A stretch of DNA of 64,000 bases from Amphritea atlantica. Its GTDB lineage: Bacteria; Pseudomonadota; Gammaproteobacteria; Pseudomonadales; Balneatricaceae. Positions 5,964 through 62,889 of this stretch are shown here, one piece after another (the first letter of the stretch is position 1; every line of letters starts with the position of its first letter). Both the position numbers and the translations under genes were made by a program. The notes under the pieces are model-generated. The model was given only the letters and a program-made list of their open reading frames with translations, ran no database searches and was not told the DNA's origin. The stretch spans positions 2,967,001 to 3,031,000 of the forward strand of contig CP073344.1 in the NCBI GenBank assembly GCA_024397875.1, in the 5' to 3' direction.

Positions 5964-6192
5964 GCCGGTAACGAAAAAACCTCTGGTAGCCTGCCCAACC
6001 TGCAGTAAAGAGCAGGAATGGAGCAGCGACAACCCTTATCGCCCATTTTGCAGCGAGCGGTGTAAAATGATCGACCTTGGCGCCTGGGCTTCAGAAGAAT
6101 ACCAGATCCCCGCCGAACCCAGTGTCGATGACTACAGCAGTAGCTTTGAAGACAGTGAAAGCGCTGACTATTTGGATCGGCCGCTGCACTGA
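5956..6192 (+). CDS. yacG: DNA gyrase inhibitor YacG (zinc protein)
   Basis: Small zinc-binding protein that in E. coli binds GyrB and inhibits gyrase. The four zinc cysteines are C13 and C16 (CPTC) and C32 and C36 (FCSERC). The following [18 protein letters not shown] segment is the family signature, and the tail is acidic. The start at 5956 overlaps the end of coaE by 8 nt and gives a 78-residue protein; a longer in-frame start at 5899 lies inside coaE and is unlikely. Confidence 0.93.
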
Positions 6193-6309
6193 TAGTGCTG
6201 CTTCTGTGAAGTATTTTTACGTCGAAGAGCCACCGAGAAAAGCTGATTTATGACTTCAGACTTTAAGCTTTCCTGTATGAGAGGCTTATAACGGCAATAA
6301 CCTGCACTG

Positions 6310-6860
6310 GTAGAGAACCTTATCGCTGCAAGATGCAGCTCCTACTAATTTGTGCCCTCTGTGAGGAATCTGTTTTATATTGTAGGAGCCGCTTCCAGCG
6401 GCGAAGGCCTGCACTGGTAGCAAGTTTTATCGCTGCTGGATGCAGCTCCTACTAACCTGAGACCTCGGTGGTAAGTCTATTTTATATTTGTGGGAGCCGC
6501 TTCCAGCGGCGAGGGCCTGCACTGGTAGCAAGTTTTATCGCTGCAGGACGCAGCGCATACTAACCTGAGACCTCGGTGGTAAGTCTATTTTATATTTGTA
6601 GGAGCCGCTTCCAGCGGCGAAGGCCTGTACTGGTAGCAAGTTTTATCGCTGCAGGACGCAGCTCCTACTAATCTGAAACTTCGGCGATGAGTCTGTTTTA
6701 TAGCGTAGGAGCCGCTTCCAGCGGCGAAGGGATATTCAGGTGCAGAGGCATTATCGCTGCAAGATGCAGCGCATACTAACCTGAGACCTCGGTGGTAAGT
6801 CTATTTTATATTTGTAGGAGCCGCCGCAAGCTTTATCGCTGCAGGATGCAGCTCCTACGG
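6310..6860. repeat. Tandem REP/BIME array, period about 108 bp
   Basis: The 702-bp gap between the convergent genes yacG and the MutT-ThiE gene holds about five tandem units. The GTAGGAG head recurs at 6382, 6490 (as GTGGGAG), 6598, 6705 and 6814, a spacing of 107-109 bp. Each unit has one palindrome read forward (GTAGGAGCCGCTTCCAGCGG type) and one read in reverse (CGCTGCAGGACGCAG then CTCCTAC), the paired layout of bacterial interspersed mosaic elements. The last unit is internally shortened. No gene was seen. About 115 bp just after yacG show nothing recognisable. Confidence 0.9.
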
Positions 6861-6894
6861 ATTTGAGACCCCGGCAGTTTCACAATCCCCTGCT

Positions 6895-7827
6895 TCAACA
6901 AAAACAACTGATAGCTGCAATCCCCTGACCACCTGCCTGAATCGTTCGATCAAGATCTTCCATTGATACTCCACCCAGCGCATAGACGGGCAGAGAGGAC
7001 TCGTTCGCCAAGCGGGAATATTCGGCCCACCCCATTGGAGTGACTTCCGGATGACTTGAGGTTGTTTGCACCGGGGAGAGAGTAATGTAATCCACGCCAA
7101 CCTGCTCCGCCCGGCGTATCTGCTCTTCATTATGGCAGGAAGCCCCGAGCCAGCGACCGCAGTACGCCTCACGATGGTTCAGTTGCATCAACCTGGCTGA
7201 ACTCAGATGAAGGGCTGATACAGCGGCCCCGTTAGCGATATCAACCGAACCATTCCAGATAATCAGCCTCCCCTGACACTGAGCAGAAAGCTGCTGATAG
7301 AGATGAAACTGCTCAGGCTCACTGAGGTGCTTCGCCCGCAACATAATGGCCTGAGCCCCCTTCAGGAACGCCTGATGAACAAATTCACTATATTGCTCCG
7401 GCTGCAACTGCGGAGTAATCGCTATCGCAGAGGGCAACAACAGCGCATTCACAATCGGTCGGTTTGCCGCCGGGAACTGATAACCACTCAGATCGCTCAG
7501 CTTAACCCAGTCAAGCGGCTGCCCCTCCCGGCCATACGCCTGCCCTATAAAACGGTTGACGCGGAAGACATCCAGTAACACGGATTTATCAGGGTAGTGA
7601 TAGGGAACCTGTATCAGGGGGACAGTAGATGACTGATCAATCTCAATCCCCAACTCCTCCTGCAACTCCCTGGCCAGGGCGCTATGAACATCTTCCCCAG
7701 ATTCAACCTTACCCCCCGGGAACTCCCATAAGCCCCCCTGATGCTGTGCTTTATCGCGCAGCGCCAGCAACAGCTCGCCGGAGTCATTGAAGATCGCCGC
7801 CGCAGCGACATGGATCAATTTCGACAC
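6895..7827 (-). CDS. mutT: Nudix hydrolase MutT fused to a ThiE-like domain
   Basis: Residues 1-130 are a MutT-type Nudix domain that should hydrolyse oxidised nucleotides such as 8-oxo-dGTP; the Nudix box GX5EX7REUXEEXGU is intact at residues 39-61. Residues about 175-310 resemble thiamine-phosphate synthase (ThiE/TenI barrel), with the LGASCHNEEQIRRAE and YITLSPVQTTSSHP segments and a phosphate-binding YALGGVS loop. The fusion is known in gammaproteobacteria; whether the ThiE-like half still makes thiamine phosphate is unclear. The start is GTG at 7827 with a poor ribosome-binding site. The gene follows argJ after 30 nt and is probably cotranscribed. Confidence 0.9.
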   Translation of the reverse strand: MSKLIHVAAAAIFNDSGELLLALRDKAQHQGGLWEFPGGKVESGEDVHSALARELQEELGIEIDQSSTVPLIQVPYHYPDKSVLLDVFRVNRFIGQAYGREGQPLDWVKLSDLSGYQFPAANRPIVNALLLPSAIAITPQLQPEQYSEFVHQAFLKGAQAIMLRAKHLSEPEQFHLYQQLSAQCQGRLIIWNGSVDIANGAAVSALHLSSARLMQLNHREAYCGRWLGASCHNEEQIRRAEQVGVDYITLSPVQTTSSHPEVTPMGWAEYSRLANESSLPVYALGGVSMEDLDRTIQAGGQGIAAISCFC

Positions 7828-23883: not shown

Positions 23884-25271
23884 CAGTGACTACCCCCATC
23901 GGTAGAGCCTGTCTTAGTCAGGCCTGTTACAATTTGATCCATTCCCGCACTGCGGGATCCTTTCACCAGCACAGAACGCTTACGCTTTGGCAACTGCCGC
24001 AGATAGCTCAACAGCTCAGCTTTATCGTTAAAGTGTCGGGCGTTATTGCCTCCAGCCACGATAAACCCATCATGTGTTGCCGCACAGAGTGTGCCGCAGC
24101 TCAATAACAGGTCGATCGGCCGGGTCGCGGCAAACTCGCCCACCTCCCGGTGTTTTTCGTCGGCTCCGGCACCCAGTTCACCCATATCCCCCAGCACCAG
24201 AACCTTTTCCCCCTCCAGCTCTGACAACGCATCGATTGCCGCCTTCACTGCATCAGGATTAGCGTTATAACTGTCATCGATAATCAGCGTGGATTTATCC
24301 AGCTGTATCGGACGCATCCGTCCTGCAACCCCCTGAAACTCACTCAGTCCCTGCACTGCAACGTCAGGCTGACAACCATCAGCCAGCACTGCAGCGGCCG
24401 CGGCAAGCGCATTGCTCACATTGTGCCGCCCCATCACCGCAAGGCTTAGCGGATATTGCTGGCCCCGGTAATTGAGGCCGAAGGCATAACAGCCGTTCGG
24501 CTGCAAACAGATATCTGAGGCAAAAACCGAAGCCTCGCGGTCCTCTGTCGAAAACGTCATCACGGGTTGCTGCTGTAACATGCTCAGCCAGATATCCGCA
24601 TGCGGATCATCCAGATTAACCACCGCAGTACCGCTTTCCGACAACCCTTCAAAAATTTCTGCCTTCGCCTGCACCACACCTCTGAGAGAGCCAAACCCTT
24701 CAAGGTGGGCACCAAAGGCATTATTCAGAATCGCGACATCCGGCTTTGTCAGATGAGTACTGTAAGCGATCTCATGAGCACCACTGGCGCCCATTTCAAT
24801 CACCCCGTAGCGATCACCGACTGACAGTCTTAACAGGGTCAGCGGCACTCCGATATCGTTGTTCAGGTTCCCCTGAGTCGCCAGAGTCTGCCCACGGAGA
24901 CGGTTGATTGATGCCAGCATCTCTTTCACCGTGGTTTTTCCACTACTACCGGTCACCGCAAACATCGAACCGCTAAACCGGTCACGGTTATAGGCCGCTG
25001 TATTGCCCAGTGCCATGCGGGTATTACTGACCACCAGCTGAGGGACATCTACATCGACCTCATGCTCAACTACCACAGCAACAGCACCATCAGCAACCGC
25101 CTGAGTTACAAAGTCATGGGCATCAAAATGTTCCCCCCGCAGAGCGATAAAAAGATCACCCGCACAGATGTTTCGTGTATCGGTGCTTACGCCCTGCACA
25201 TCGCAACTGCCGCCAATCAGTCGGGCTGACAGCGCTGTCGCCAGCTCACTGAGACTAAAGGGACCATTCAC
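23883..25271 (-). CDS. murF: UDP-MurNAc-tripeptide--D-Ala-D-Ala ligase MurF
   Basis: Completes the UDP-MurNAc-pentapeptide by adding D-Ala-D-Ala. The ATP loop is [14 protein letters not shown], with [14 protein letters not shown] and [15 protein letters not shown] as MurF-specific segments. The length of 462 residues is normal. The start is GTG at 25271, overlapping the murE stop as GTGA, so translation is probably coupled. Confidence 0.96.
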
Positions 25272-42489: not shown

Positions 42490-43360
42490 GAGGCAAGAGA
42501 TTTAATTTAAGACTACGCGCCGATATACCCATCAGAGCCACGGCGATGAATTATTCCGCCGACTGCTGATGGCTTATCGCTGCTGGAAGCAGCTCCTACA
42601 AGGTGTAATGTGTTGTAGGAGTGGCGTCCCGCCGCGATGATTTTATCGCCCCTGGAAGGGGCTCCTACGGGGCCGGGCATGTATTGTAGGAGCGACATAA
42701 GTATGCCCTCTGGGTGCTTGCCGCGAAAAGTTTTATCGCCCCGGGACGGGGTTCCTACACAAAACAGATCATTGCGCCTAAACAGGAGCCCTTTTTAAGG
42801 GCGATTGATTATTTTCAACAGAGAAACAGAGGGAAGAGATTTAATTTGAGGCTGCGCGCTGATATACCCATCAGAGCCACGGGGATGAATTATTTCTCCG
42901 CCTGTTGATGGTTTATCGCTGCTGGAAGCAGCTCCTACAAGGTGTAATGCGTTGTAGGAGTGGCGTCCCGCCGCGATGATTATATCGTCCCTGAAAGGGG
43001 GCTCCTACGGGGAGGGATGTATTTGTAGGAGCGGCATTAGCATGCCCTCTGGGTGCTTGCCGCGAAGGGTTTTATCGCCCCGGGACGGGGCTCCTACACA
43101 AGACAGATCATTGCGCCTATGCAGGAGCCCTTTGTAAGGGCGATTTATTATTTTCAACAGAGAAACAGAGGGAAGAGATTTAATTTGGGGCTGCGCGCTG
43201 ATATTCCCATTAGAGCCACAGCGATGAATTATTCCGCCGACTGCTAATGGCTTTATCGCTGCTGGAAGCAGCTCCTACAAGGTGTAATGTGTTGTAGGAG
43301 TGGCGTCCCGCCGCGATGATTTTATCGCCCCGGGACGGGGCTCCTACACAAAACAGACCT
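42490..43360. repeat. Tandem triplication (339-bp units) containing REP palindromes
   Basis: The 1163-bp gap between zapE and lrgB contains three direct copies. GATTTAATTT starts at 42499, 42838 and 43177, and the inner GTAGGAGTGGCG palindrome at 42615, 42954 and 43294, so the period is 339-340 bp. Each full unit holds about five REP palindromes of both orientations plus a unique spacer (GAAACAGAGGGAAGAGA). The third copy has an internal deletion of roughly 130 bp and ends near 43360. Open frames in it are translations of the palindromes, not genes. The flanks (42307-42490, 43360-43469) show nothing recognisable. Confidence 0.9.
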
Positions 43361-58003: not shown

Positions 58004-59370
58004 GCAAACTAGCCTGTTTCAAAGCCTACGATATCCGCGGCCAGCTGGGTACTCAGCTGGATGAAGACCTGACCTACCGCATCGGCCGTGCCTATGCAGA
58101 GTTCCTGAAACCTGAGACCGTTGTGGTTGGCGGCGATATGCGCCTGTCCACCGAGTCACTGAAACAGGCTCTGGCAAACGGCCTCAGGGATTCCGGGGTC
58201 AATGTTCTGGATATCGGCCTCTGTGGTACCGAAGAGATCTATTTCGCCACCGCGCACCTGAACACCGATGGCGGTATCGTTGTGACCGCGAGTCACAACC
58301 CCGAAGATTACAATGGTATGAAGCTGGTTAAGCAAGGCTCCCGACCAATCAGCGGCGATACCGGGCTGAATGACATTGAACAGCTGGCCCGTGAAAATAA
58401 TTTTGCCGCAGTCGATGAAGCCAGGCACGGCAGCTACGAAAAAGTGGATACCCTTGCGGCCTACATCGAACATCTGGAAGGCTATATAGACCTGCAAACC
58501 CTTAAACCGATGAAACTGGTGGTAAACGCCGGTAACGGTGTTGCCGGACATGTGATCGATGCCCTCGAAGCTCAGTTTAAAGCGGCATCCGTGCCGGTCG
58601 AATTTATCAAAATTCACCACCAGCCCGATGGCACCTTCCCCAATGGTATCCCCAACCCCATTCTGGAAGAGAATCGCGCCGACACCATCGCGGCCGTGCT
58701 GGAACATAAAGCCGACATGGGGATCGCCTGGGATGGCGACTTCGATCGCTGCTTCCTGTTTGATGAAAATGGCCGTTTTATCGAAGGCTACTATATCGTA
58801 GGACTGCTGGCCGAAGCCTTCCTGGCAAAAAACCCCGGGGCCGCGATTATCCACGACCCGCGCCTCACCTGGAACACTCTGGATATCGTTGAGGCCAGTG
58901 GCGGTAAAGCGATTCAAAGCAAAACCGGACATGCCTTTATCAAAGAAAGAATGCGTCAAGAAGATGCCGTGTACGGCGGAGAGATGAGTGCTCACCATTA
59001 CTTCCGTGACTTCTTCTACTGCGATAGCGGAATGGTGCCATGGCTGCTGGTCGCTGAACTCATCAGCAACAAGGGACAGACGCTATCGCAACTGGTTGAC
59101 GACCGGATTACCCGATACCCGTCCCCCGGCGAGATCAACAGCAAACTGGAAGACCCGAAAGCCGCTATCGAGCGAGTTCTCAGCACTTACAAGGATGCCG
59201 CAAAAGCGATCGACTACACCGACGGTATCAGCCTGGATATGGGTGAATGGCGCTTCAACCTGCGCTCATCCAACACCGAACCGGTGGTTCGGCTAAACGT
59301 TGAAACCCGGGGAGATGAAGCCCTGATGAAAACCAGAACCGACGAGCTTCTGACACTGCTGCGCAGTTAA
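58000..59370 (+). CDS. manB: Phosphomannomutase / phosphoglucomutase (CpsG/ManB type)
   Basis: Converts mannose-6-phosphate to mannose-1-phosphate (and probably glucose phosphates) for nucleotide-sugar synthesis. The start [17 protein letters not shown] is typical of CpsG. The phosphoserine loop is TASHNP with Ser98, and the magnesium loop is D245-G-D-F-D249-[17 protein letters not shown] is the C-terminal phosphate-binding loop. The start at 58000 gives 456 residues and overlaps the VanZ-like stop; the frame is open further upstream, but that part lies over the VanZ gene. No manC is nearby. Confidence 0.93.
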
Positions 59371-59392
59371 CCCGAGATTTTTTCGTTCGGAT

Positions 59393-59740
59393 GATAAAAC
59401 CATCGCGGCAGGATGCCGCTCCTACGTACATACCATCCCGTAGGAGCCCCTTCCAGGGGCGATATACCATCGCGGCAAGCACCCAGAGGGCATACTAATA
59501 CCGCTCCTACAAATACATCCCACCCCGTAGGAGCCCCGTCCCGGGGCGATAAAACCTTCGCGGCAGGATGCCGCTCCTACAATACATCCCACCCCGTAGG
59601 AGCCCCTTCCAGGGGCAATCAAACCATCGCGGCGAGCACCCAGAGGGCATACTAATACCGCTCCTACAATACATACCATCCCGTAGGAGCCCCTTCCAGG
59701 GGCGATAAAACCATCGCGGCGAGCACCCAGAGGGCGATCA
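59393..59740. repeat. REP array left of the RAYT gene
   Basis: Four units carry a forward GTAGGAGCCCC palindrome (59440, 59527, 59596, 59683) and an inverted CTCCTAC palindrome, with spacings of 69 or 87 bp. The 87-bp units carry an extra 18 bp within an AGCACCCAGAGGGCATACT segment. The array lies directly after manB and ends at the RAYT stop. Confidence 0.92.
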
Positions 59741-59748
59741 AACACCCC

Positions 59749-60195
59749 TTAAACCCAAACCGCATCCCACAACGAATACTCTCTGTAACTTTTCACTAAC
59801 CCTGCCCTAACCGGATTCATAACCATATAACGCGCGATCTCCGTTAAATCCTCTTCATTCCTGATAGCATGATCATGAAAACCTTTTTGCCAGATATGCC
59901 CCGACTGCCCCAGTCTTTTATTGATCTCTTTAGCTGAAAATGATTTGAGAGAATGGATTAAATGCTCAAGTGAACCATTACGTAGTTCCACCAGCCAGTG
60001 AACATGATCAGGCATGATTACATACGCAAGCGTCTCAACGTTATCGGCCATAAAAACCATTGAACGTATAACAACTCGTCCACAATAGAGATCTGTAAAG
60101 ATAGGTTTACGCTGACAGGTTACAAACGTAACCAGATAGATCCGACCAGGCTCAGAAAACCGGCCTTTTCGCAGAGCAGATGAATTCCCTTTCAT
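59749..60195 (-). CDS. REP-associated tyrosine transposase (RAYT, Y1 family)
   Basis: Single-strand nuclease of the IS200/IS605-like Y1 superfamily, related to E. coli TnpA-REP and thought to mobilise or maintain REP palindromes. The 148-residue protein has the HUH motif H64-V-H66 in AYVIMPDHVHWLVE and the candidate catalytic Tyr123 in ARYMVMNPVRAGLV, with SGHIWQKGFHDHAIRNEED between. The gene has no terminal inverted repeats of its own; it sits between two REP arrays whose palindromes begin with GTAG, the tetranucleotide recognised by characterised RAYTs. It appears intact. No gene partner is next to it. Confidence 0.93.
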   Translation of the reverse strand: MKGNSSALRKGRFSEPGRIYLVTFVTCQRKPIFTDLYCGRVVIRSMVFMADNVETLAYVIMPDHVHWLVELRNGSLEHLIHSLKSFSAKEINKRLGQSGHIWQKGFHDHAIRNEEDLTEIARYMVMNPVRAGLVKSYREYSLWDAVWV

Positions 60196-60224
60196 CTTTG
60201 ATTCCTTTTCCTAACATTATTGGT

Positions 60225-60838
60225 GTGAGGGCCCTTTCAGGGGCGATATAATCATCGCGGTGGGACACCACTCCGACAATACATCCCACCCCGTAGGAGC
60301 CCCTTCCAGGGGCGATCAAACCATCACGGCGGGACGCCGCTCCTACAATACATACCCAACCCCGTAGGAGCCCCTTCCAAGGGCGATAAAACCATCGCGG
60401 CGGGACGCCGCTCCTACAATACATTCCACCCCGTAGGAGCCCCTTCCAGGGGCGATAAAACCTTCGCGGCGGGACGCCGCTCCTACAATACATACCCAAC
60501 CCCGTAGGAGCCCCTTCCAGGGGCGATAAAACCATCGCGGCGGGACGCCGCTCCTACAATACATCCCACCCCGTAGGAGCCCCTTCCAGGGGCGATCAAA
60601 CCATCGCGGCGGGACGCCGTTCCTACAAATACATCCCACTCCTTAGGAGCCCCTTCCAGGGGCGATAAAACCTTCGCGGCGGGACGCCGCTCCTACAATA
60701 CATACCTCCCCCCGTAGGAGCCCCTTCCAGGGGCGATAAAACCTTCGCGGCGGGACGCCGCTCCTACAATACATACCTCCCCCCGTAGGAGCCCCTTCCA
60801 GGGGCGATAAAACCATCGCGGCAGAATGCCGCTCCTAC
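60225..60838. repeat. REP array right of the RAYT gene
   Basis: Nine tandem units of 69-71 bp. The forward head is at 60293, 60364, 60433, 60504, 60573, 60643 (TTAG variant), 60714 and 60785, with a degenerate unit near 60225. Each has a forward palindrome GCCCC-TTCCA-GGGGC and an inverted GCGGC-GGGAC-GCCGC ending CTCCTAC. Units are almost identical, implying recent amplification or gene-conversion. The array runs to the galE stop codon. Open frames inside it only translate the repeats. Confidence 0.95.
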
Positions 60839-60845
60839 TCAGCGC

Positions 60846-61856
60846 TTACCTATACCCCTCTGGATTATTGATCTGCCAGCGCCAGTGATCTTCAACCATC
60901 CGTTTAAGATCATACTTCGCAATCCAACCCAGTGCCCCCTGACTGAACGACGGATCAGCATAGCATTCTGCAATATCACCCGCGCGCCGCGCAACAATCT
61001 GATACGGAATCTCCCGCTCGGAGGCACAGGCAAACGCCTTTACGACCTCAAGCACTGAATAGCCATTGCCTGTGCCTAAGTTATACGCCCTGCAATCATG
61101 TTGCGGATTCAGGGCAGCTAACGCACACAGGTGCCCGGCCGCCAGGTCTTCTACATGGATATAATCACGCACACCGGTACCATCAACCGTTGGATAATCC
61201 CCGCCAAACACACTTAGTTTTTCACGTTTACCGACGGCAACCTGGGCGACAAACGGCATCAGGTTATTGGGAATACCCGCAGGATCTTCACCCATCAGAC
61301 CACTCGTGTGAGCCCCCACCGGATTGAAATAACGCAACAGGGATATCTGCCATGCACTATCTGACACAGCCAGATCCCTGAGGATATTTTCAATCATCAG
61401 CTTCGACTGACCATAGGGGTTGGTGGCTGACAGAGGGAAGTCTTCACGGATGGGAACCGAAGCCGGGTCGCCATAAACCGTCGCCGATGAACTAAACACA
61501 ATACGCTTGCAGCCATTGCTGGCCATCACATCAAAAAGGGTCAACGAGCCTTCGACATTGTTCTGATAATAGCGCAGAGGCTGAGCAACCGACTCCCCTA
61601 CCGCTTTTAATCCCGCAAAGTGGATAACCGACTCAATAGCATACTCAGAAAAAACCGTATTCAGACACACCCGGTCACGGATATCCCCTTCCACAAAAAC
61701 CGGGCGTTTTCCGGTGATCTGTTCGACCCGGTTAAAGACCTCAGGATGGCTGTTACACAGGTTATCAAGCACGACAACCTCATAGCCCGCCTCAAGTAAC
61801 ATAACAACGGTATGAGACCCAATGTAGCCAGCCCCGCCCGTAACCAGAATTGCCAT
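60846..61856 (-). CDS. galE: UDP-glucose 4-epimerase GalE
   Basis: Interconverts UDP-glucose and UDP-galactose. The N-terminal NAD motif is LVTGGAGYIGSHTVVMLLEAG, the catalytic Tyr/Lys pair is in NPYGQSKLMIENIL with the Ser in VFSSSATVYGDP, and RDYIHVEDLAAGH is conserved. The length of 336 residues is normal. It is on the opposite strand from the polysaccharide block but supplies the same sugar-nucleotide pool. Confidence 0.96.
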   Translation of the reverse strand: MAILVTGGAGYIGSHTVVMLLEAGYEVVVLDNLCNSHPEVFNRVEQITGKRPVFVEGDIRDRVCLNTVFSEYAIESVIHFAGLKAVGESVAQPLRYYQNNVEGSLTLFDVMASNGCKRIVFSSSATVYGDPASVPIREDFPLSATNPYGQSKLMIENILRDLAVSDSAWQISLLRYFNPVGAHTSGLMGEDPAGIPNNLMPFVAQVAVGKREKLSVFGGDYPTVDGTGVRDYIHVEDLAAGHLCALAALNPQHDCRAYNLGTGNGYSVLEVVKAFACASEREIPYQIVARRAGDIAECYADPSFSQGALGWIAKYDLKRMVEDHWRWQINNPEGYR

Positions 61857-61904
61857 ATAAAATCAGTCCTTAATTGATGAATATGTTAGACGTCCCCGCC
61901 GTTT

Positions 61905-62060
61905 CTCAGGTTTATCGCCCCGGGACGGGGCTCCCACAAGGGCAACTACTCCTGCCCCCGGGCACCCAGAGGGCATGCTAAAGGGGCTCCTACAATACAT
62001 TAAACCCCGTACCCGGGGCGATGGCTTTATAGCCGCGAGGAGCACCTCCTACAGCGGCTT
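61905..62060. repeat. REP palindrome cluster between galE and cysQ
   Basis: The 253-bp gap before cysQ's end contains an inverted CGCCCCGGGACGGGGC with CTCCCAC, a GGGCACCCAGAGGGCATGCT segment joined to CTCCTAC, a CCCCGTACCCGGGGCGAT palindrome without its head, and CTCCTAC again near 62047. They are degenerate relatives of the arrays around the RAYT gene. Confidence 0.75.
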
Positions 62061-62109
62061 CTTTTTCGGACCCGGACAAGCGCAGCGATCGGACAGCGAA
62101 CCTCGGCTT

Positions 62110-62889
62110 TCAACCCCACTTATCCGACTTTTCAGCGCAGACAATAAAGAATGGATTCAACAGCGTGTTCGGGCGGGTATTGTACAGCAGCGGTGTCAGC
62201 TCAGGGTATTGCAGAACCAGACCTCCGGCTGCACTGACCACAGCATGTGCCGCAGCAGTATCCCATTCACTGGTTAATCCCAGACGCGGATAAAGATCAG
62301 CGGCGCCCTCGGCAACCAGACACAGTTTCAGAGAACTGCCCATGGAAACCACTTCGGTATCCGGCAGCCCCTTAACAAACGCTTTGAATTCATCAGTCTG
62401 ATGTGAACGGCTTCCCACTACACGCCAGACGGCACCTTCAGCGGGAATAGCAGACACCTTGATTGACTCAACCTGTCCAGCGGACTCTTTAAACGCCCCG
62501 TCAGCATCACCCCAATACGTAACATCCAGTGCCGGCGCATAAACAACACCAAACACAGCTTTACCCTGATCGATCAGGGCAATATTGACGGTAAACTCGT
62601 CGTTCTTCTTGATAAACTCTTTGGTTCCATCGAGCGGATCAATCAGCCAGTATCGCTGCCATGACATACGCTCCAGATGTTCATCAGCATCGGACTCCTC
62701 AGATAAAACCGGAATCTGAGGCGTCAGTCGTTTAAGCCCGTCAACAATACAATGGTGAGAGGCTAAATCAGCTTCCGTCAGCGGACTTTCATCCTGCTTT
62801 TCATACACAGCAAAATCACGTTGATAGATCGCCATGATTGCAGCGCCCGCGTGTTTAGCCAGATCGATAATATCTTGATTATTGAACAT
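62110..62889 (-). CDS. cysQ: 3'(2'),5'-bisphosphate nucleotidase CysQ
   Basis: Inositol-monophosphatase-family enzyme that hydrolyses phosphoadenosine phosphate (PAP) from sulfate assimilation. Metal-binding motifs DESPLTEADLASH, SEESD and DPLDGTKEFIKKNDEFTVNIALI are in order, and TSEWDTAAAHAVVSAAGG is the second conserved block. The ATG at 62889 has a GAAGGA ribosome-binding site; the frame continues to 62910 without support. Length 259 residues. Confidence 0.93.
   Translation of the reverse strand: MFNNQDIIDLAKHAGAAIMAIYQRDFAVYEKQDESPLTEADLASHHCIVDGLKRLTPQIPVLSEESDADEHLERMSWQRYWLIDPLDGTKEFIKKNDEFTVNIALIDQGKAVFGVVYAPALDVTYWGDADGAFKESAGQVESIKVSAIPAEGAVWRVVGSRSHQTDEFKAFVKGLPDTEVVSMGSSLKLCLVAEGAADLYPRLGLTSEWDTAAAHAVVSAAGGLVLQYPELTPLLYNTRPNTLLNPFFIVCAEKSDKWG

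Follow-up and report, generated by a model that had tools for sequence, protein, structure and literature searches.

The locus analysed here is, judged by its sequence, an ordinary group-3-like REPtron, consisting of one domesticated Y1 RAYT and its own REP hairpins, and two inverted REPs of its left array hold an exact 18-nt loop insert (genus consensus TAGCATGCCCTYTGGGTA) that was not mentioned in the preliminary description. It seems rather probable that the whole is built in two layers, the REPtron and, riding on it, an 18-nt very small non-autonomous mobile-like element whose putative mover acts in trans.

The window is a stretch of 64,000 nucleotides of the Amphritea atlantica genome, and the features on which the analysis is based are the following.

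6323..6858, unstranded: REP cluster with TGC/CGC stems, sharing the GTAGGAGC...GCGA frame
42699..42716, plus strand: 18-nt insert (one mismatch) in a REP of the 42.5 kb cluster
43038..43055, plus strand: 18-nt insert in a REP of the 42.5 kb cluster
Ending at 59370, plus strand: manB/algC, left neighbour of RAYT and the left array
59393..59738, unstranded: left REP array between manB/algC and the RAYT 3' end, four forward REPs and their inverted partners
59440, 59527, 59596 (one mismatch) and 59683: left forward REPs, with inverted partners
59480..59497, minus strand: 18-nt loop insert TAGTATGCCCTCTGGGTG in an inverted GGC-type REP
59637..59654, minus strand: 18-nt loop insert TAGTATGCCCTCTGGGTG in an inverted GGC-type REP
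59724..59735, minus strand: truncated inserted REP, in which the final 12 nt of the insert precede the right REP arm
59749..60195, minus strand: RAYT (TnpA-REP, Y1 HUH single-strand nuclease), 148 aa, from profile matches and motif
60220..60838, unstranded: right REP array between the RAYT start and the galE 3' end, nine forward/inverted units of 69-71 bp
About 60223-60246: first right forward REP, degenerate, identified by eye
60293, 60364, 60433, 60504, 60573, 60643 (one mismatch), 60714 and 60785: right forward REPs
60255-60816: nine right inverted REPs
60846-61856, minus strand: galE, right neighbour of RAYT and the right array
61963..61980, minus strand: 18-nt insert in a CCC-type REP upstream of galE, outside the interval of the preliminary description

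That the gene encodes a complete Y1 transposase with an HUH motif at residues 64-66 and Tyr123, as had been claimed, was confirmed by profiles, motif and invariant residues. RAYT matched Pfam Y1_Tnp with 46 bits and NCBIfam NF047646 (REP_Tyr_transpos) with 146 bits against a cut-off of 80; counted from its translation, HVH stands at residues 64-66 and the tyrosine at 123, and H64, H66 and Y123 were invariant across 10 aligned RAYT sequences. Among solved structures one match was obtained, 4er8, named TnpArep. RAYT alone matched Y1_Tnp in the whole genome (G000; 4.55 Mb, two contigs). Its closest relatives were found in an Oceanospirillales MAG (90%), A. pacifica (82%) and A. opalescens (66%). 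The dN/dS of the window RAYT was 0.117 against G010 and 0.256 against A. pacifica, its two nearest relatives, and by these ratios the gene is under purifying selection.

For comparison we used a genus set of 17 genomes, the window's own (G000) and 16 others. The order manB-RAYT-galE is kept in five species (G000, G010, A. pacifica, G006 and G013), and the single Y1_Tnp match, this synteny and the dN/dS values together characterize a vertically kept gene rather than an insertion sequence. In G001, manB and galE are present without RAYT and three insert-bearing REPs are still there, and the site looks as it would after RAYT loss; the RAYT of G001 lies at 24247-24690 on the same contig as its manB/galE. 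No match to manB was found in G007 within the 40 kb examined. We also noticed that galE shares only 65-66% identity with the galE of A. pacifica, G001, G006 and G013, manB in these genomes being 85-89% identical, and galE in G000 and G010 may be a replaced copy.

RAYT is flanked on both sides by REPs with a GTAG foot. When GTAGGAGC-N11-GCGA was searched with at most two mismatches, 58 matches were found in the window, compared with a mean of 4.75 and a maximum of 13 in shuffled sequences (n=100), and both arrays were thus confirmed as real and far above chance. The pattern search also agreed with the earlier count of about four units on the left and nine on the right, each with a forward and an inverted palindrome, and with palindromes that start with GTAG. 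The unit length of 69-71 bp, given previously for all units, is correct for the right array but not for the left one, where the forward REPs are spaced by 87, 69 and 87 bp because two of the three intervening inverted REPs carry 18 extra loop nucleotides. Similarly, relatives described as degenerate at 6.3, 35.7, 42.5 and 61.9 kb are indeed present, but simple degeneracy does not apply to the clusters at 6.3 and 42.5 kb, in which seven and six sites fit the frame exactly with different stems; 35.7 and 61.9 kb have one site each, with GTGG. In the own genome, 98 exact frames occur on both contigs, against two for the reversed-pattern control, in agreement with the dispersal of REPs beyond the locus that had been proposed.

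Near-identical head-to-tail units of fixed length are as compatible with local tandem duplication as with transposition. In G010 (RAYT 90% identical), the repeat on one side has a period of 89 bp, and its unit already contains the 18-nt insert. The arrays of L036/L117 and L037, from related species, differ from those of the window in the number and type of their units, a comparison at the level of species and not of strains of one species. Two of the three conditions that the preliminary description gave as refuting were not encountered: the genome has further copies, and the arrays vary among species. The system had been regarded as possibly lineage-specific; this goes too far for its REP architecture, since a foot, two spacer bases, a short stem and a small loop have been published for Marinomonas Mb (PMC8266576, in excerpt), whereas the 18-nt loop insert looks lineage-specific. 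An Rfam scan of 59300-62200 gave nothing above threshold; a sub-threshold match to STAXI RNA lay over the right array (60702-60833, minus strand; 22.1 bits, gathering 40.5).

The REPs follow the formula GTAG-GA-GCNNNN-TCC-N'N'N'N'GC-GA. In 88 distinct GTAGGAGC-N11-GCGA contexts of the own genome, which has 98 exact copies, the four loop-proximal stem pairs were Watson-Crick in 86, 88, 85 and 82 cases, three Watson-Crick pair types occurred at stem positions 1, 2 and 4, and the loop was TCC in 76; the most frequent 11-mers were TGCATCCTGCA (16), GGCTTCCAGCC (15) and CCCTTCCAGGG (13). Pairing, loop and frame are constant while the letters vary, so the stem letters are free, and it is therefore most likely that the enzyme reads the GTAG foot, the loop and the paired stem on single-stranded DNA and not the stem sequence, as covariation and published group-3 work jointly suggest. 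In experiments on a group-3 enzyme, the effect of a stem swap was moderate, cleavage was seriously reduced by mismatches, and certain loop positions allowed no change (PMC8266576, in excerpt). A short perfect palindrome with a conserved loop, as in group 3, is what the covariation set contains. The short form of 148 aa is only suggestive of this group, whose members are described in the passages of PMC8266576 drawn on here as lacking the C-terminal tail of the E. coli protein. The REP/RAYT part is nothing unusual: near group 3, it adds one more well-resolved system to the RAYT/REP kind. It is useful in that a single enzyme accompanies many stem types of one frame, so that stem-independent recognition can be put to the test.

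Across the 17 genus genomes, 310 exact frames were found, compared with eight for the reversed-pattern control; counts per genome were 98, 80, 53, 28, 17, 11, 9, 7, 3, 3 and 1, with none in six genomes. RAYT matches at E < 1e-50 were present in 7 of the 17. G008, G009 and G002 have 9, 11 and 7 frames without a RAYT at this threshold, and in G012 and G013 RAYT is present with 0 and 1 frames, so REP frames and RAYT do not coincide strictly across the genus. Where a RAYT belongs to the 58-64% group, the REPs beside it have different stems and loops, such as GTAGGAGGCGTGCCCTCACGCCGA in L039 and L042.

The hosts of the insert are REPs of several frames and, in addition, CTCTGTG repeats without evident flanking homology to REPs. 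When the own-genome sites with at most one mismatch (n=28) were classified by eye, 23 lay in REP frames, four in CTCTGTG repeats and one beside half a REP. At 179 sites, which take in two single matches from other genera (L181-L194), the flanks were GTRGGA REPs (89), GTRGCGA REPs (24), CTGTGGT repeats (21) and others (45), many of the last being, by eye, altered versions of the three main classes. The base to the right of the insert was C at 166 of these sites, and the base to the left T or C at 174. Orientation was examined at 190 sites, a set without the single matches of other genera (L181-L194): 126 REP and 32 CTCTGTG sites were alike, 31 were unclassified, and one site flagged as opposite by the script proved by eye to be a CTCTGTG site in the usual orientation. 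Orientation is thus uniform at all classified sites (159/190). At L244, three 18-nt units follow one another head to tail with no bases between them, one mismatch being present in the first, and the unit length is therefore fixed at 18 nt.

Several other repeats were seen in the course of this analysis. At 1844-2493 of A. pacifica locus L040, a CTCTGTG repeat with an 18-nt insert recurs in six units of about 127 bp, and the corresponding interval of G001 is about 1.4 kb shorter. A dispersed repeat of about 320 bp, with CTCTGTG units and a MITE-like look, lies at about 495-815 of L215 (G000:C1:2097894-2098214), with other copies at G000:C1:773438-773698 (without the insert-bearing middle) and in G001 C9, C22 and C23. 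Two further short dispersed repeat families with many genus-wide matches are found at about 632-700 and 1027-1102 of L212, and one of them sits in TTGTCCGAACGC sequences.

To compare filled and empty sites, the insert was excised in silico from 177 sites, loci L181-L194 having been set aside beforehand. Excision of exactly 18 nt yielded a 16-mer existing elsewhere in the sequence set at 77 sites (75 without two that are units of a tandem triple), and an exact empty 16-mer was not obtained for the other 100. At the inferred boundary, excision of 17, 19 and 20 nt restored 3, 27 and 0 sites; 18- and 19-nt cuts begun one base further left restored 21 and 24, and all other cuts (10-26 nt, shifts of -4 to +4) 0-8. 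The 19-nt and left-shifted matches are presumed to be due to variable C runs and alike flanks. Among the restored empty forms were CCCCTT^CCAGGGG, CCCCGT^CCCGGGG, TGCTT^CCAGCA, GACGC^CCTCGTC and GTGTCCT^CTGTGG.

An orthologous pair was found beside a second-type RAYT, where G001 (contig 16, 24102) reads GGAGGCGCGC-18 nt-CCTCGCGGCGATAAGTG and A. pacifica L040 reads GGAGGCGCGC-CCTCGCGGCGATAAGTG. The two differ by exactly 18 nt and are 96.5% identical over 202 aligned bases, the A. pacifica side of the comparison being two 12-kb loci. A search with insert-free queries gave at least 246 sites, many of them paralogous repeats and not orthologues, and only the G001/A. pacifica pair was used from it. 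Beside another conserved gene, G006 (L322) is filled and G001 (L318) and G010 (L320) are empty, and the loops of G006 and G001 additionally differ in length by one C. A third site, at 2098053, carries the insert in G000 and lacks it in G001, the two also differing by an 8-nt CTCTGTG unit. No target-site duplication was seen at the empty sites compared, and the insert has only TA at each end, so the terminal inverted repeats and target-site duplication of a MITE are both missing. As regards the second-type RAYT, A. pacifica L040 has two adjacent copies (6001-6444 and 6801-7244) inside a REP array of 105-bp units, both with the same match, 60.8%, to the window protein.

The insert core occurred in 153 copies, compared with two for the control, in 10 of the 17 genus genomes, with 0 to 32 insert copies per genome. 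The exact 18-mer was found in 1 of 369 genomes of the class, the own genome alone, in a search for exact 18-mers that diverged relatives elsewhere would escape. A core 15-mer was found in 14 of 244 genomes of the order, with 27 copies in the own genome, two in G618 and one in each other. These searches point to an insert confined to the genus, with isolated matches only elsewhere. G003 has four insert copies, no RAYT protein match at E <= 1e-3 and no exact frame; insert copies are absent from G007, which has two RAYTs, and from G012, which has one. A blastn search of plasmids with a 35-nt query and one of phages with a 41-nt query gave no match, and a plasmid or phage origin was rejected on these missing matches; one viral contig holds the exact 18-mer, outside any REP and followed by T. 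We also considered derivation of the insert from the RAYT 3' end (WDAVWV codons, identical at 14 of 18 positions), which was rejected when 32 of 1000 codon shuffles reached at least 14.

The free 18-mer folded no better than shuffled sequences (z -0.06). For three folds of filled REPs, z was -2.70, -2.07 and -1.09, for a filled CTCTGTG repeat 0.53, and the CCC-type filled REP, when folded as DNA, did not form the outer stem as the empty REP does. The predicted folds lend weak support to a single-strand or RNA step.

The following course of events may explain these observations. Local REP units would have multiplied mostly by tandem duplication, and the insert would have gone into hairpin loops (T^CC, C^CCT) and into CTCTGTG repeats (CT^CTGTGG), usually where a pyrimidine is followed by C, in one orientation and, as the comparison with empty copies shows, without target-site duplication. 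Later it would have multiplied together with its host repeats. An enzyme acting in trans could carry out a single-strand DNA or RNA step. Since the insert-free REP architecture is known far outside the genus (PMC8266576, in excerpt) and the insert is confined, insertion is a simpler direction than deletion. More tentatively, and with somewhat less than even confidence, we propose that the 18-nt sequence is an independent mobile element, among the smallest described, which would insert at single-stranded loops and Y^C sites in one orientation and without duplication, by a mechanism independent of the REP transposase, and would parasitise REPs, themselves genome parasites. Against mobility it can be argued that the fixed orientation and position could reflect few founding insertions and not many events, and that gene conversion inside arrays could swap filled and empty states.

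A cautious reader may prefer to see the insert as a mere REP loop variant of one or a few origins, which REPs carried along as they spread through RAYT transposition, tandem duplication and gene conversion, and which has no mobility of its own. The uniform orientation, the adjacent filled and empty units in one array (window 59393-59738; L040), the 89-bp block in which G010 amplified a filled unit and the published loop variants within one REP family, GTAG-3 (PMC3733652, in excerpt), all suit such an origin. The main obstacle is the CTCTGTG copies: the same 18 nt stand in REPs of different frames and in these repeats without evident shared flanks. The copies of G003, with neither RAYT-protein match nor exact frame, and the triple of bare units in L244 also argue against it, and we consider it rather doubtful.

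It is very improbable, in our view, that the insert is a protein-binding or processing site held in hairpin loops by selection and not by mobility, which might coexist with the other readings. Conservation is strong, the two commonest forms making up 96 of 211 distinct contexts (at most three mismatches; a set that includes some RAYT 3'-end matches and was used only for counting these two exact consensus forms), and no stop-to-stop frame of at least 150 codons spans the insert in 37 rows (28 distinct own sites). However, the copy number is patchy among relatives, and selection alone leaves an exact 18-nt insertion unexplained. IS200/IS605-type enzymes act on hairpins and insert without target duplication, behaviour that would suit RAYT itself as the mover, the insert being cut as a tiny hairpin and joined at Y^C, which is a special case of the two-layer explanation. 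The insert boundaries are mostly Y^C, and group-3 enzymes cleave at CT and CA (Mb) or CT (Sm) (PMC8266576, in excerpt), but insert presence does not follow RAYT presence in the 17 genus genomes and the 18-mer has no GTAG foot and folds no better than shuffled sequences; this is very improbable. Both of these readings overlap the others, and the likelihoods given need not add up to certainty.

Under the two-layer explanation, the insert weighs more than the REPtron, being a fixed 18-nt unit in at least two unrelated repeat classes of one genus. It raises the question of what enzyme moves so little DNA, which the genus-wide set of filled and empty sites helps to answer. Should it be mobile by itself, the lower size limit of mobile DNA falls and mosaic REPs in other genomes merit re-inspection.

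The closest known system is the group-3 REPtron Mb of Marinomonas sp. MWYL1, described in 2021, which likewise has a GTAG foot, 2 nt between foot and stem, a short perfect stem, a small loop and REPs clustered near the gene, with catalytic Tyr125 in place of Tyr123 (PMC8266576, in excerpt). In contrast to Mb (same source), the system described here, known from sequence, has many stem types in one TCC-loop frame and some REPs with the 18-nt insert. The REP families GTAG-1 and GTAG-2 (2013; PMC3733652, in excerpt) share the unpaired dinucleotide that separates foot from stem, with a conserved 3-bp motif on the opposite side. Loop variants coexist in GTAG-3 as well, but in the passages drawn on they are described within one family (PMC3733652), whereas here one insert is common to several families and to non-REP repeats; the words Amphritea and Oceanospirill* are absent from the main text of that article. 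REPINs (2011; PMC3116915, in excerpt) resemble the present REPs in their inverted pairs, although here these mostly form local arrays.

No report of the insert was among the matches listed in searches of the open-access literature, and its 14-mer cores were absent from the open-access texts searched. It comes nearest to the small dispersed repeats of cyanobacteria, being itself a fixed-length dispersed unit inside other repeats and confined to one coherent lineage. Elhai et al. are said to have described such repeats in 2008 as 21-27 nt long, embedded in other repeats within one lineage, and reportedly with copies adjacent to or inside other copies; at 18 nt, the insert falls short of this length. 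Small dispersed repeats reportedly share a hairpin or an RNA intermediate. The cyanobacterial repeats are described as about 20 bp long and possibly mobile (PMC2884548, in excerpt). The insert, known here from DNA only, differs from them in its 18 nt, in belonging to Gammaproteobacteria and in its position in REP loops, but both are about 20 nt long, dispersed, embedded in repeats and confined to a lineage, with copies adjoining copies.
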